From the NCBI RefSeq assembly GCF_021789175.1, contig NZ_CP084560.1:3782001-3846000 (forward strand): a stretch of DNA of 64,000 nt. Reading direction: 5' to 3'. Within the stretch, counting starts at the first letter, position 1. The number at the start of each line of letters is the position of its first letter. Positions 10,776 through 13,257 of this stretch are shown here, one piece after another. The notes under the pieces are model-generated. The model worked only from the letters and a program-made list of their open reading frames with translations. It searched no databases and had not been told where the DNA came from. The DNA is from Arthrobacter sp. FW306-2-2C-D06B. Its GTDB lineage: Bacteria > Actinomycetota > Actinomycetes > Actinomycetales > Micrococcaceae. The position numbers and the translations under genes were made by a program.

Positions 10776-11918
10776 TTAGTTGGAAGCAGCCATCCGACGC
10801 TTGCGGGCCGAGGCCGCCAACTGGTCCAGGACGGACACCGTGACGTCCCATTCCATGCAGGCGTCCGTGACGCTCTGGCCGTACACCAGCTCTTGCTCGC
10901 CAGCAGACTGCCGCTCCACATCCAGGTTCTGCGCCCCACCGACAAGGAAGCTCTCCAGCATGACGCCGGCGATCGGCGAAGCCACGTCATCTTCCAACTG
11001 CGCACCGATCTCCAAGGCGACTTCGGCCTGCCGATGGTGGCTCTTGCCGCTGTTGGCGTGGCTCGCGTCAACAATCAGGCGCGGATTCAGCCCCTTCGCC
11101 GAGAGCTTCTCCGACGCAACCGCGACTTGCCCGGCGGCGTAGTTCGGACCCTTGCGACCGCCGCGCAGGATCACATGCGTGTCCGGGTTGCCTGCAGTCG
11201 CCACCAGGGCGGCGCGCCCATCGCCGTCGATCCCCAGGAACGCCTGGGGAGCCGCAGAAGCGCCGCAGGCATCGATCGCTACCTGGAGGTCGCCGTCGGT
11301 CCCGTTCTTGAAGCCGATCGGCATGGACAGACCGGAGGCGAGCTGACGGTGGATCTGGCTCTCGGTGGTCCGCGCACCGATGGCGCCCCACGCCACGAGG
11401 TCGGCCATGTATTGCGGGCTGATGGGTTCCAGGAACTCAGTGGCGGTCGGCAAGCCGAGGGCCGTGACTTGCTGCAGGAATCCACGCGCCGCACGGAGTC
11501 CGGCCGCGATGTCATGGCTGCCGTCCAGGTGGGGATCGTTGATGAGGCCCTTCCAGCCCACCGTGGTCCGCGGCTTCTCGAAGTACGCCCGCATGACGAT
11601 CAAAAGGTCTTCCTTGTGCTTCTCCGCCTGGCCGACCAGCCTGCGTGCGTATTCCAGGCCGGCCTTCGGATCGTGGATGGAGCACGGGCCCACGATCACC
11701 AGGAGGCGATCGTCAACCCCGTCCATGATGGCGCGGACTCCATCGCGCCCGCGCTCGACGACGGTGGCGGACCTCGCGTCGAGCGGCAGTTCGGCGCTGA
11801 TTTCCTGCGGCGTGGGGAGCGGCTCGAAGCGGCTGACGCGCAGGTTCGACGTCGGCTGGGCGGCGGCATTCTCGACGTCGACGTTATGCGTGGTGGGCTC
11901 TGCGGCGATGCTGGTCAT
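10776..11918 (-). CDS. aroG: 3-deoxy-7-phosphoheptulonate synthase, class I (AroG/AroF type)
   Basis: 380 residues. It condenses phosphoenolpyruvate and erythrose 4-phosphate, the first step of the shikimate pathway. Class I hallmarks are VIVGPCSIHDPKAG (around 72-86), MRAYFEKPRTTVGWKG (PEP/E4P site), GARTTESQIHRQLASG, GFKNGTDGD, and IVDASHANSGK before a C-terminal metal ligand region. Class I enzymes are usually feedback-inhibited by Phe, Tyr or Trp; which one cannot be read reliably. ATG at 11918 has AGGA 8 nt upstream, but that site lies in a stem. Upstream is an aromatic-rich leader peptide with competing hairpins, so transcription or translation attenuation is very likely. Confidence 0.95.
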   Translation of the reverse strand: MTSIAAEPTTHNVDVENAAAQPTSNLRVSRFEPLPTPQEISAELPLDARSATVVERGRDGVRAIMDGVDDRLLVIVGPCSIHDPKAGLEYARRLVGQAEKHKEDLLIVMRAYFEKPRTTVGWKGLINDPHLDGSHDIAAGLRAARGFLQQVTALGLPTATEFLEPISPQYMADLVAWGAIGARTTESQIHRQLASGLSMPIGFKNGTDGDLQVAIDACGASAAPQAFLGIDGDGRAALVATAGNPDTHVILRGGRKGPNYAAGQVAVASEKLSAKGLNPRLIVDASHANSGKSHHRQAEVALEIGAQLEDDVASPIAGVMLESFLVGGAQNLDVERQSAGEQELVYGQSVTDACMEWDVTVSVLDQLAASARKRRMAASN

Positions 11919-11923
11919 GAAAG

Positions 11924-11952
11924 GGGTCCTGTTCCGAAAGAGGTGCGGACCC
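11924..11952 (-). promoter_or_regulatory. Stem covering the aroG ribosome-binding site
   Basis: GGGTCC (11924-11929) pairs with GGACCC (11947-11952). On the transcript the AGGA Shine-Dalgarno (11930-11927) of aroG overlaps the 3' arm, so the folded stem would hide it. This suggests a translational layer of control below the leader-peptide attenuator. Confidence 0.5.
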
Positions 11953-11954
11953 TG

Positions 11955-12062
11955 CTCAGAGCCCGCCTGGAAATGGCGAAGGGCAGAGAATCATCTCTGC
12001 CCTGTTGGCTCTGAAGGAAAGTTGGATGCGTGTCAGTTAGACGCGGGCCCCTCCAGAGCCAA
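11955..12062 (-). promoter_or_regulatory. Attenuator-like competing hairpins in the aroG leader
   Basis: Read in transcript order: arm A (12062-12050, TTGGCTCTGGAGG) overlaps the last codons of the leader peptide. Arm B (12017-12005, CCTTCAGAGCCAA) pairs with A over 13 positions with one G-U. A perfect 9-bp hairpin (12002-11994 with 11989-11981, GGGCAGAGA arms, 4-nt loop) follows at once. Arm E (11964-11955, GGGCTCTGAG) can also pair with CAGAGCC of arm B. A and E therefore compete for B. The 9-bp hairpin lacks a good T run, so the outcome could be termination or control of ribosome-site access. Confidence 0.65.
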
Positions 12063-12092
12063 CGAAAAATACGCATACCAACGCTTAGTCAT
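12033..12092 (-). CDS. Aromatic amino acid leader peptide of aroG
   Basis: A 19-codon frame, MTKRWYAYFSLALEGPASN, ends with TGA at 12035-12033, 114 bp before aroG. Codons 5-9 read Trp-Tyr-Ala-Tyr-Phe, so four of five consecutive codons specify the end products of the pathway that aroG opens. The frame ends inside the region that forms one arm of a long hairpin, as expected for an attenuator leader. It has no Shine-Dalgarno, but TATGGT (12099-12104 on the plus axis) lies 6 nt before the ATG, so the transcript probably begins at the start codon itself. Conservation in relatives would confirm it. Confidence 0.8.
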   Translation of the reverse strand: MTKRWYAYFSLALEGPASN

Positions 12093-12098
12093 AGCCAA

Positions 12099-12104
12099 AC
12101 CATA
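12099..12104 (-). promoter_or_regulatory. -10 element of the aroG leader transcript
   Basis: TATGGT on the minus strand, with TTGCGG 18 bp further upstream as a weak -35. It places the transcription start at or next to the leader-peptide ATG (12092). Confidence 0.5.
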
Positions 12105-12149
12105 ACCTCAGGCTCCGGATGCCCGCAAATTGAAATGCAACGACATCAA

Positions 12150-12164
12150 GGGAAACCGTTTCCC
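12150..12164. promoter_or_regulatory. LacI-family operator upstream of lacI-type gene
   Basis: GGGAAAC-C-GTTTCCC is a perfect 7-bp palindrome with one central base. The AAAC/GTTT core is typical of LacI-family operators. It lies 80 bp before the lacI-type gene and about 46 bp upstream of the aroG leader -10, so it could serve autoregulation and might also touch the divergent aroG promoter. Confidence 0.6.
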
Positions 12165-12243
12165 CACGCAATATAAACTTCACCTCAGAACAAATGTCCC
12201 CGCCGCGTTGGAACAGGGCGGCCCCAGCTCCAGGAAGGAAACC

Positions 12244-13257
12244 ATGCCAGGCAGAAGGAACACCCGGCGGGTGGGCATCGCAGATGTGGCATCCATGGCC
12301 GGTGTTTCGCACGCCACGGTTTCCCGCGTCATGAACGGAAATACAACCGTGGACGCGGACATTGCCGCGCGCGTGCGCGCGGCCGCCTTGGAGCTGAAGT
12401 ACAAGCCGAACCCGGTAGGCCGCAGCCTGGCCCTGGGAAAAACCGACACTATCGGAATCGTGGTGCCGGACCTGTCCAACCCCACGTTCCAGGCCATTCT
12501 CCGCGGACTGAGTATTGCCGCGGCCCGCGACGGCTACCGCGTATTGATCGCGGACTCCTCCGAGGTCTCCAGCGAAGAAGCGATCCTCGCCGGGGAAGCC
12601 CGGAGGCGATGCGACGGCGTCGTTCTTTGCGCCCCCCGCATGAGCGACGCGGAACTGGAAGAACTCGCCCCCACGCTCTATCCGCTCGTCCTCATCAACC
12701 GGACCACCGAGTCGGTGCCGACCCCCAGCCTCGTGGTGGACTACGGCCAAGGCATCCAGGAGCTCGCCGCCCATCTGGTGGAGCTGGGCCATCGCAAACT
12801 GGCCTATCTGACGGGACCGGACCGCAGCGCGTCCAACGTGCAGCGCCTTCGCGGTCTCGAAAAGTTCACGGCCGAATTCCCCAACGTCGAATTGCAGTTC
12901 ATTCCCGGAGGCAACACGTTCGACGCCGGATTCGAGTCAAGCGATGCCGTCGCCTCGTGCGGTGCCACCGGGATCCTCGTCTTCAACGACGTCGCGGCGA
13001 TGGGCCTCTTGAGCGGACTAAGCCAGCGCGGCATCCGCGTACCGGAAGACTTGTCGCTCACCGGTTTCGACGACATGCCCTTCGCCCGGTACACCATGCC
13101 TCCGCTGACCACCGCCGCCGTGCCGATCTCCGACCTCGGGGACCTTGCATGGCGCCGCATGCGGGAGCAGATCCAGGCCAAAGACGCCGCCTCCCCCACG
13201 AACTACTTCCCGCCGCGGATTGAGCTCAGGGGCAGCACCGGACCCGTCAAAGCCTAG
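12244..13257 (+). CDS. LacI family transcriptional regulator
   Basis: 337 residues. The N-terminal HTH begins at about residue 9 (GIADVASMAGVSHATVSRVM) with the hinge helix near 48-58 (NPVGRSLALG). A periplasmic-binding-protein-like sensor domain fills the rest (DTIGIVVPDLSNPTFQ, later GFDDMPFARYTMPPLTT). The ligand is not identifiable; no sugar enzyme or transporter gene is adjacent, so targets are probably elsewhere. ATG at 12244 has a good AGGAAGGAA site. A matching palindrome sits upstream, suggesting autoregulation. Its stop overlaps the convergent fadR-type stop by 4 bp. Confidence 0.9.
   Translation: MPGRRNTRRVGIADVASMAGVSHATVSRVMNGNTTVDADIAARVRAAALELKYKPNPVGRSLALGKTDTIGIVVPDLSNPTFQAILRGLSIAAARDGYRVLIADSSEVSSEEAILAGEARRRCDGVVLCAPRMSDAELEELAPTLYPLVLINRTTESVPTPSLVVDYGQGIQELAAHLVELGHRKLAYLTGPDRSASNVQRLRGLEKFTAEFPNVELQFIPGGNTFDAGFESSDAVASCGATGILVFNDVAAMGLLSGLSQRGIRVPEDLSLTGFDDMPFARYTMPPLTTAAVPISDLGDLAWRRMREQIQAKDAASPTNYFPPRIELRGSTGPVKA

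Follow-up and report, generated by a model that had tools for sequence, protein, structure and literature searches.

The gene aroG (10776–11918, minus strand; TIGR00034, 468.6 bits), which encodes a class I 3-deoxy-D-arabinoheptulosonate 7-phosphate (DAHP) synthase, lies in a 64,000-nucleotide (nt) stretch of the genome of the soil bacterium Arthrobacter sp. FW306-2-2C-D06B (contig NZ_CP084560.1, positions 3,782,001–3,846,000; hereafter the window, in which position 1 is the first letter and all features lie on the minus strand unless stated otherwise). Comparison of the region upstream of aroG with its counterparts in related bacteria indicates that it holds a real, widely conserved regulatory element, conserved far above chance, and control by ribosome stalling is well supported: the comparison shows a leader frame, its aromatic codons, a set of RNA helices, the incompatibility of these helices and a position before a DAHP synthase gene. 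Our working hypothesis is that the element senses a shortage of aromatic aminoacyl-tRNA and most likely controls the translation of aroG; as a full model, we rate this at slightly less than an even chance. Stalling itself, the translational output and the ON/OFF assignment are all steps that we infer, the ON/OFF assignment being the weakest. A sequence-only reading of the same DNA had seen the logic of ribosome stalling at the entry enzyme of the aromatic pathway and was correct from the raw sequence: the leader with Trp, Tyr and Phe codons and the competing helices with compensatory changes bear it out, while its claim to novelty has to be reduced and its mechanism extended.

The predicted leader peptide gene (MTKRWYAYFSLALEGPASN plus stop; 12033–12092) is a 19-codon frame ~110 nt ahead of aroG, with the A of its ATG at 12092 and the end of its stop codon at 12033. 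It reads ATG ACT AAG CGT TGG TAT GCG TAT TTT TCG TTG GCT CTG GAG GGG CCC GCG TCT AAC TGA, so that codons 5, 6, 8 and 9 are aromatic and codons 5–9 spell W-Y-A-Y-F, exactly as the sequence-only reading had it. A −10 promoter element, TATGGT (12099–12104), which that reading overlooked, ends 6 nt ahead of the leader start codon. In our collection of 123 sequences (128 minus five duplicates; L047 lacks an aroG start), a TANNNT box ends 6–7 nt 5′ of the leader start codon in 116; among the remaining seven, the distance is 8 nt in three, and in four the script had chosen an upstream start, with the next in-frame ATG 6–7 nt from the box. Because the −10 box lies 6–7 nt before the start codon, the transcript probably starts at or beside this codon, making the leader itself probably leaderless. 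A transcript start at the leader start codon has been published for several leader peptides of Streptomyces lividans, according to an excerpt of PMC8079986. A gene for a LacI-family regulator (12130–13257, plus strand) diverges from the leader/aroG promoter region.

Because some leader frames had been picked partly by their aromatic content (for L082–L132, the choice fell on the most aromatic start nearby), a frame control was needed. The folding set (the 90 of the 123 sequences that are in alignment A4) has 46 distinct leader regions, and in all 46 the leader frame was the most aromatic of the three frames, with a mean of 3.33 aromatic codons compared with 0.46 and 1.04 in the other two, and the same held for 33/33 loci that had been found by the RNA model. 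The 103 unique leaders gave 53 distinct seven-residue cores before segment b (see below), with two aromatic residues in seven cores, three in 28 and four in 18; W occurs in 46 cores, Y in 52, F in 48 and all three in 41. The presence of two to four aromatic residues in every core is partly built in because some leaders were chosen for aromatic content and were counted only if three or more of seven residues were aromatic and a −10 box was present; moreover, three leaders yielded no core, and a few cores (e.g. KRWYAYF and VRRSRYF) are two residues out of register. In the window, the Tyr and Phe codons of the leader are exclusively TAT and TTT, which make up 19% and 9% of the Tyr and Phe codons, respectively, in 22 window open reading frames.

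Among leaders recognized by the peptide pattern, the peptide is near-invariant except in the Microbacterium records, as would be expected if the nascent peptide (RWYAYF..ALEGP) itself arrested the ribosome, possibly in response to a free aromatic amino acid. We consider this highly improbable. The order of the aromatic residues differs by family (RWYAYF, RRWRYF, RWYWRF, RRYPYF, RWFTYA, YWRF) and the C-terminal half of the leader varies between families, so that the peptide is not conserved beyond the control codons as an arrest peptide should be; besides, its constancy is accounted for by the RNA helices b:d and b:b′ described below. In two sequences the leader is frame-shifted near b, by a one-base insertion in L040 and, in L107, by the reading of the same b RNA in a different frame, and the preceding aromatic codons are read normally; these shifts, too, speak against peptide arrest.

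From 5′ to 3′, the RNA comprises segments a and b, the leader stop codon, segments c and d, hairpins e and g, segments f1 and f2, the Shine-Dalgarno site and the aroG start (11918). Segment a (GUUGG-U-AUGCGU, codons 4–8; 12071–12082) can pair with c (12021–12031, immediately 3′ of the stop codon) in a helix of 11 base pairs (bp) inside the leader (12082–12071/12031–12021), a competitor of b:d that had been overlooked. Segment b (codons 10–15; 12050–12063) can pair with d (12004–12017); this helix had been described as 13 positions (12062–12050/12017–12005) and is real, its length being 14 bp (12063–12050/12017–12004). Alternatively, b can fold locally into the hairpin b:b′ (GGCUC..GGGCC; 12046–12060), which is indicated by the fold and the alignment and is incompatible with b:d. 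The perfect 9-bp hairpin e reported earlier is located at 12002–11981 and is followed, according to the alignment, by hairpin g (11964–11978; CGCC..GGCG, CGUC..GACG in relatives). Segment f1 (11956–11967) can pair either with d or, via 11966–11961, with f2 (GGGUCCGC; 11945–11952); a second pairing of d, with 11964–11955, had been proposed and exists, its extent being 12014–12007 with 11963–11956. Finally, f2 can instead sequester the aroG Shine-Dalgarno site (AGGACCC; 11924–11930) in a second overlooked hairpin (11952–11947/11929–11924). For the 176-nt window RNA, the folding energy is −76.7 kcal/mol (z −5.71 relative to shuffles, 0/200 as good); its minimum-energy fold combines a:c, a hairpin of b, d:f1 in a junction with e and g, and the f2:Shine-Dalgarno pairing. 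An H-type pseudoknot with complete a:c and b:d was rejected by reasoning, as a loop of ~7 nt would have to span ~13 bp; on this estimate of our own, we treat a:c and b:d as alternatives. We also note that early aroG bases (CAGAGCCC; 11902–11895) look by eye like the complement of f1 (GGGCUCUG); in this lineage, they may provide one more competing pairing.

The sequence-only reading had suggested aligning the upstream regions of relatives, and the comparison shows that leaders with aromatic codons recur there and that b:d and e covary. Specifically, in the main alignment of 43 diverse sequences, built without structure, 93.7% of b:d cells are paired, with five pairs showing two-sided changes, and 97.7% of the cells of hairpin e are paired, with two-sided changes in seven of nine pairs. 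Jointly, b:d and e are 95.2% paired compared with 47.5–56.0% after a slide by one column and 35.8–56.0% after slides of one to three columns; their covariation score was reached by 0/500 shuffles, and the result was reproduced on 54 sequences including family f22. Paired cells amount to 88.8% for hairpin g (two pairs with two-sided changes), 85.4% for d:f1, 81.8% for b:b′ (without two-sided changes in that alignment) and 59.4% for a:c, for which the alignment has indels at that place; L072 was omitted from alignments A1 and A2. We complemented these figures with an alignment-free duplex test against mononucleotide shuffles on 41 representatives of the folding set (<88% identity). Here, b:d reached both z<−2 and p≤0.05 in 41/41 sequences and a:c in 29 and 32 of the 41, respectively, while p≤0.05 was found for d:f1 in 23, f1:f2 in 24 and f2:Shine-Dalgarno in 16 of 41. 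The f2/Shine-Dalgarno hairpin as such was significant at this level in 15/41, in versions that differ in sequence (GGGUCC:GGACCC, CGGUCC:GGACCG, GUCCCG:CGGGAC, CCUGUC:GACAGG and GGCUCC:GGAGCC). A segment able to pair fully both with f1 and with the Shine-Dalgarno region had p≤0.05 in 22/78 sequences, related ones included and with some aroG starts doubtful (regions of 33–44 nt); the triples concerned change in sequence (GGGCUC/GGGUCC/GGACCC, GGCAGG/CCUGUC/GACAGG, GGCACC/GGUGCC/GGCACC), and the first, that of the window, had p=0.07. Thus, the f1:f2 and f2:Shine-Dalgarno helices are weaker than b:d, e, d:f1 and a:c, and they are missing from some lineages. Taken together, these predicted helices are mutually exclusive and one of them overlaps the leader, as is general for leader-peptide attenuators. 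That leader translation merely boosts aroG translation through reinitiation, without sensing, would agree with a short frame ~110 nt upstream of aroG; because it leaves both the exclusive, covarying helices and the aromatic content without a role, we regard this explanation as most improbable.

To delimit the reach of the element, we used a scan with the aroG protein, from which the best 80 of 580 candidates were kept as relatives. The peptide pattern located a leader in 78 of these, and the other two (L069 and L080, with leaders VIDRRYAYDCSALEGPQRA and VIIRRSWRYRVVALEGPLAS) match R1, a covariance model built from the window and 33 further loci (34 sequences) that do not include them; the element is thus found ahead of aroG in 80/80 kept relatives. 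One of them, L059 (NZ_JADHDY010000003.1), carries the full element before an Arthrobacter-like aroG with 78% identity to the query in a record titled Sporosarcina beigongshangi, possibly a mislabelled assembly. R1 matched 33/297 genomes of the order (expect value E≤0.001) and 26/394 of the class (E≤0.01), and 54/54 distinct matches are followed on the same strand by a TIGR00034 match at a distance of 36–188 nt. Because TIGR00034 is present in 74/297 order and 78/394 class genomes, R1 detects under half of the genomes with this gene. The model misses distant members, and part of the gap consists of members recovered by the leader script or by a second model, R2, built from 54 sequences with genus g210 of family f22 held out. 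Among the loci listed, an aromatic leader (three or more aromatics within seven residues) with a TANNNT box before its start was found upstream in 22/30 order loci and 10/30 class loci. The leader was present in 27/27 new loci of f22; in the loci examined of family f4 (8/8) and family f35 (20/20), the script found no leader and R2 no match at E≤1. Most f4 genomes with a match (e.g. G237, G068 and G192) have two class I DAHP synthase genes near each other, and L132 (G477) has a partial element before aroG (R1 26.6 bits, R2 39.3 bits) with no recognisable aromatic leader frame. In a scan of the phylum, R2 matched 10/296 genomes, four of these at a best E of 6.8e-4 to 5.6e-3. The genome of the window has a single copy, with no other convincing one (next E 8.67). 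A second type of DAHP synthase, class II (PF01474), is encoded in this genome outside the window (G000 C1:1708551-1709843), making aroG one of two isoenzyme types; both families are likewise signalled for C. glutamicum.

Strong nucleotide conservation across ~150 nt with several hairpins would also suit an RNA that binds a metabolite or a protein and in which the short frame is incidental. We view this as very unlikely, because the aromatic content is specific to one frame, the −10 box is tied to the start codon in 116/123 sequences and no Rfam family covers the element in the sequences searched. In Rfam 15, window positions 11000–13000 gave a sub-threshold IRE_I match located elsewhere as the sole match, with T-box and other families not matched, and seven relatives gave no match over the element at E≤0.5.

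How, then, might the helices act? The pairs that exclude each other (b:d versus b:b′ and d:f1; d:f1 versus f1:f2; f1:f2 versus f2:Shine-Dalgarno) define two global states, state I with a:c, d:f1 and f2:Shine-Dalgarno and state II with b:d and f1:f2. In the translational switch that we propose, the transcript would start at the leader's own AUG. With ample charged tRNA, the ribosome would clear the leader, allowing a:c to form and b to fold on itself; d:f1 would then form and leave f2 free for the aroG Shine-Dalgarno site, keeping aroG off. With aromatic tRNA in short supply, a ribosome stalled on the aromatic codons would cover a and prevent a:c; b:d would form and release f1, which would capture f2, open the Shine-Dalgarno site and turn aroG on. 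When RNAs ending at the AUG were folded with the ribosome footprint masked, the Shine-Dalgarno site cost less to open in 31/41 sequences when ribosomes sat on aromatic rather than later codons (p=0.0012), with a mean difference of −1.07 kcal/mol compared with +0.01 in a mononucleotide-shuffled control (n=205). A stall at the last aromatic codon brought the opening cost below that of the free RNA in 74/90, and blocking d in RNA ending at the AUG made opening easier in 65/90. In addition, control of the related aroR leader of Corynebacterium glutamicum is termed translational in the part of PMC7356990 available.

Several observations weigh against this switch. With d blocked, opening was easier in 47 and harder in 43 of 90 sequences when 15 nt of aroG were included, and easier in 33 and harder in 57 with 28 nt; because the effect of the block depends on RNA length, the polarity is not robust, and folding with 20 nt of aroG revealed no consistent Shine-Dalgarno switch. 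L109–L111 show the opposite sign of this effect. Only 25/90 sequences favour a:c over b:d at equilibrium, implying that kinetic folding is needed for the OFF state. Stalling at the first aromatic codon lowered the cost relative to free RNA by >0.5 kcal/mol in 36/90 and raised it in 29; relative to free RNA, aromatic stalls gave a smaller gain (27/41, p=0.01), which was indistinguishable with an 18-nt edge (p=0.26), and relative to a ribosome at the stop codon they never differed significantly (p 0.14, 0.082 and 0.5). The stall at the last aromatic codon was better than that at the first in 52/90, frequently with d:f1 formed; a Phe9 stall in the window favours d:f1 rather than b:d, and in many Arthrobacter this stall has the lowest opening cost, pointing to another route. 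The dual-pairing segment is absent in 27/78 sequences, including typical Arthrobacter and both Corynebacterium-like loci, and in three Arthrobacter-group representatives (L048, L050 and L071) f1 itself pairs with the Shine-Dalgarno site. Lastly, an excerpt of PMC11802643 reports the homologous aroR as transcription attenuation.

Because the polarity varies with RNA length, the polarity implied by the sequence-only reading has to be treated as a rival: a stall at Tyr8 or Phe9 would mask b, d:f1 would form, and a Shine-Dalgarno site otherwise covered by f1 would be freed. The favouring of d:f1 by the Phe9 stall in the window, the 74/90 sequences in which the last-aromatic stall lies under the free RNA, the 57/90 in which blocking d with 28 nt of aroG hinders opening and the f1:Shine-Dalgarno pairing of L048, L050 and L071 all fit this order of events. 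The RNA with 28 nt of aroG thus favours this polarity, the RNA ending at the AUG the reverse. As a general feature, however, pairing of f1 with the Shine-Dalgarno site was rejected, as it reached p≤0.05 in 4/41 only; furthermore, stalls at Trp5 and Tyr6 would leave b unmasked, and a:c would have no role. For these reasons we consider this polarity unlikely. For the translational switch in general, opening of the site on starvation is somewhat better supported than the identity of the helix responsible.

The other explanation to be weighed is classical transcription attenuation, in which hairpin e or a Rho site would terminate transcription unless a ribosome stalls on the leader, as reported for C. 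glutamicum aroR. In eight of 14 f22 members (L174, L182, L194, L196, L200, L205, L212 and L215), e is followed by 6–7 U in 9 nt and is terminator-like; in four of 40 others (L101, L107, L121 and L136) it is followed by 6 U in 9 nt. In PMC11802643, as far as the excerpt goes, aroR is described as a case of transcription attenuation. In the window, by comparison, the tail of e (UUCGCCAUU) has 4 U in 9 nt, no helix competing with e was found and the Shine-Dalgarno hairpin would be left unexplained. A terminator scan found no intrinsic terminator between the leader and aroG; the two terminator-like matches that it gave precede the leader. We think classical attenuation rather doubtful. With regard to the attenuation originally proposed, the stalling leader stands, while in place of an intrinsic terminator a Shine-Dalgarno hairpin is conserved in many lineages. 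Hairpin e may serve as a pause hairpin in the window, and one sensor may have two outputs in different lineages.

The attenuator aroR was reportedly first studied by Neshat et al. in 2014. It precedes aroF in C. glutamicum and has Phe-Tyr-Phe codons; Phe limitation was effective and Tyr limitation was not, with control at transcription (PMC11802643, in excerpt), whereas PMC7356990 describes, in the portion available, translational control by Phe and Tyr. Further mentions of aroR occur in passages of PMC4046766 and PMC6892785. The held-out g210 loci match R2 (L195, E 4.1e-9; L193, E 2.7e-7; rough values). We call these two loci Corynebacterium-like from the make-up of their family and the AroF N-terminus, MTPPTSLEN, compared with MSSPVSLEN in a primer in the available part of PMC7356990; their leaders, MRMWRFYFSKAPEAETS (L195, starting MRMWRFYF..) and MRNWRFYFEWGSGR (L193, starting MRNWRFYF..), contain the AroR-type Phe-Tyr-Phe and have a TANNNT box 7 nt ahead of their start codon. 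Through these loci rather than the C. glutamicum RNA itself, the window element is apparently homologous to aroR. In both systems, a class I DAHP synthase gene follows a leader peptide that contains aromatic codons; the window differs in having Trp-Tyr-Tyr-Phe codons, the a:c helix and the Shine-Dalgarno hairpin, and in being without a U-tailed intrinsic terminator between leader and gene. The earlier statement that a combined sensor on aroG is not a textbook case has to be tempered by the precedent of aroR, whose Corynebacterium-like counterparts match the same RNA model.

Escherichia coli trpL shares the stalling logic and competing segments and differs by its U-tailed terminator and its Trp codons only. 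The same likeness and differences apply to the trp attenuators of Corynebacterium and Streptomyces as presented in an excerpt of PMC1262725. The LEU element before leuA in Actinobacteria, described in the same excerpt, resembles the aroG element in combining a leader peptide with control codons and alternative structures that involve the Shine-Dalgarno box; there, however, the leucine codons themselves pair with the leuA Shine-Dalgarno box, and the proposed structure includes a pseudoknot, whereas in the window f2 rather than the control codons pairs with this site, and gene, sequence and amino acid differ (aroG and aromatic codons). Compared by description only, from part of PMC8632094, uORFC-13-1 before aroF in Acholeplasma is likewise an upstream open reading frame with Phe codon(s) ahead of a DAHP synthase gene; it differs in having an intrinsic terminator and a ribosome-binding site of its own and in belonging to an unrelated phylum. 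According to a 2005 passage of PMC1262725, no conserved RNA structures had been seen ahead of the phenylalanine or tyrosine operons of Actinobacteria, and our searches of the open-licence PMC literature gave no account of the element for Arthrobacter, Microbacterium or relatives. Given aroR, the element is not wholly new; what is new is how broadly it occurs, the putative full W/Y/F sensor and two structures, helix a:c and the hairpin over the Shine-Dalgarno site.

We tentatively suggest, as a possibility rather than a probability, that the members form a widespread actinobacterial RNA family that uses a single leaderless leader to integrate the charging of all three aromatic tRNAs and passes the signal on via the mutually exclusive helices a:c, b:d, d:f1, f1:f2 and f2:Shine-Dalgarno to the initiation of aroG translation, with a U-tailed terminator hairpin as the output in part of the family, including the known aroR lineage. 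The covariance model supplied describes a family without an Rfam 15 match in the eight sequences searched and offers clear segments to mutate. DAHP synthase is the control point for flux into all aromatic amino acids, and, read as a sensor, the leader most likely raises the production of this enzyme when tryptophan, tyrosine and phenylalanine run short. If this is true, one RNA would weigh three amino acids together, and the same sensor may drive translation or termination depending on lineage.

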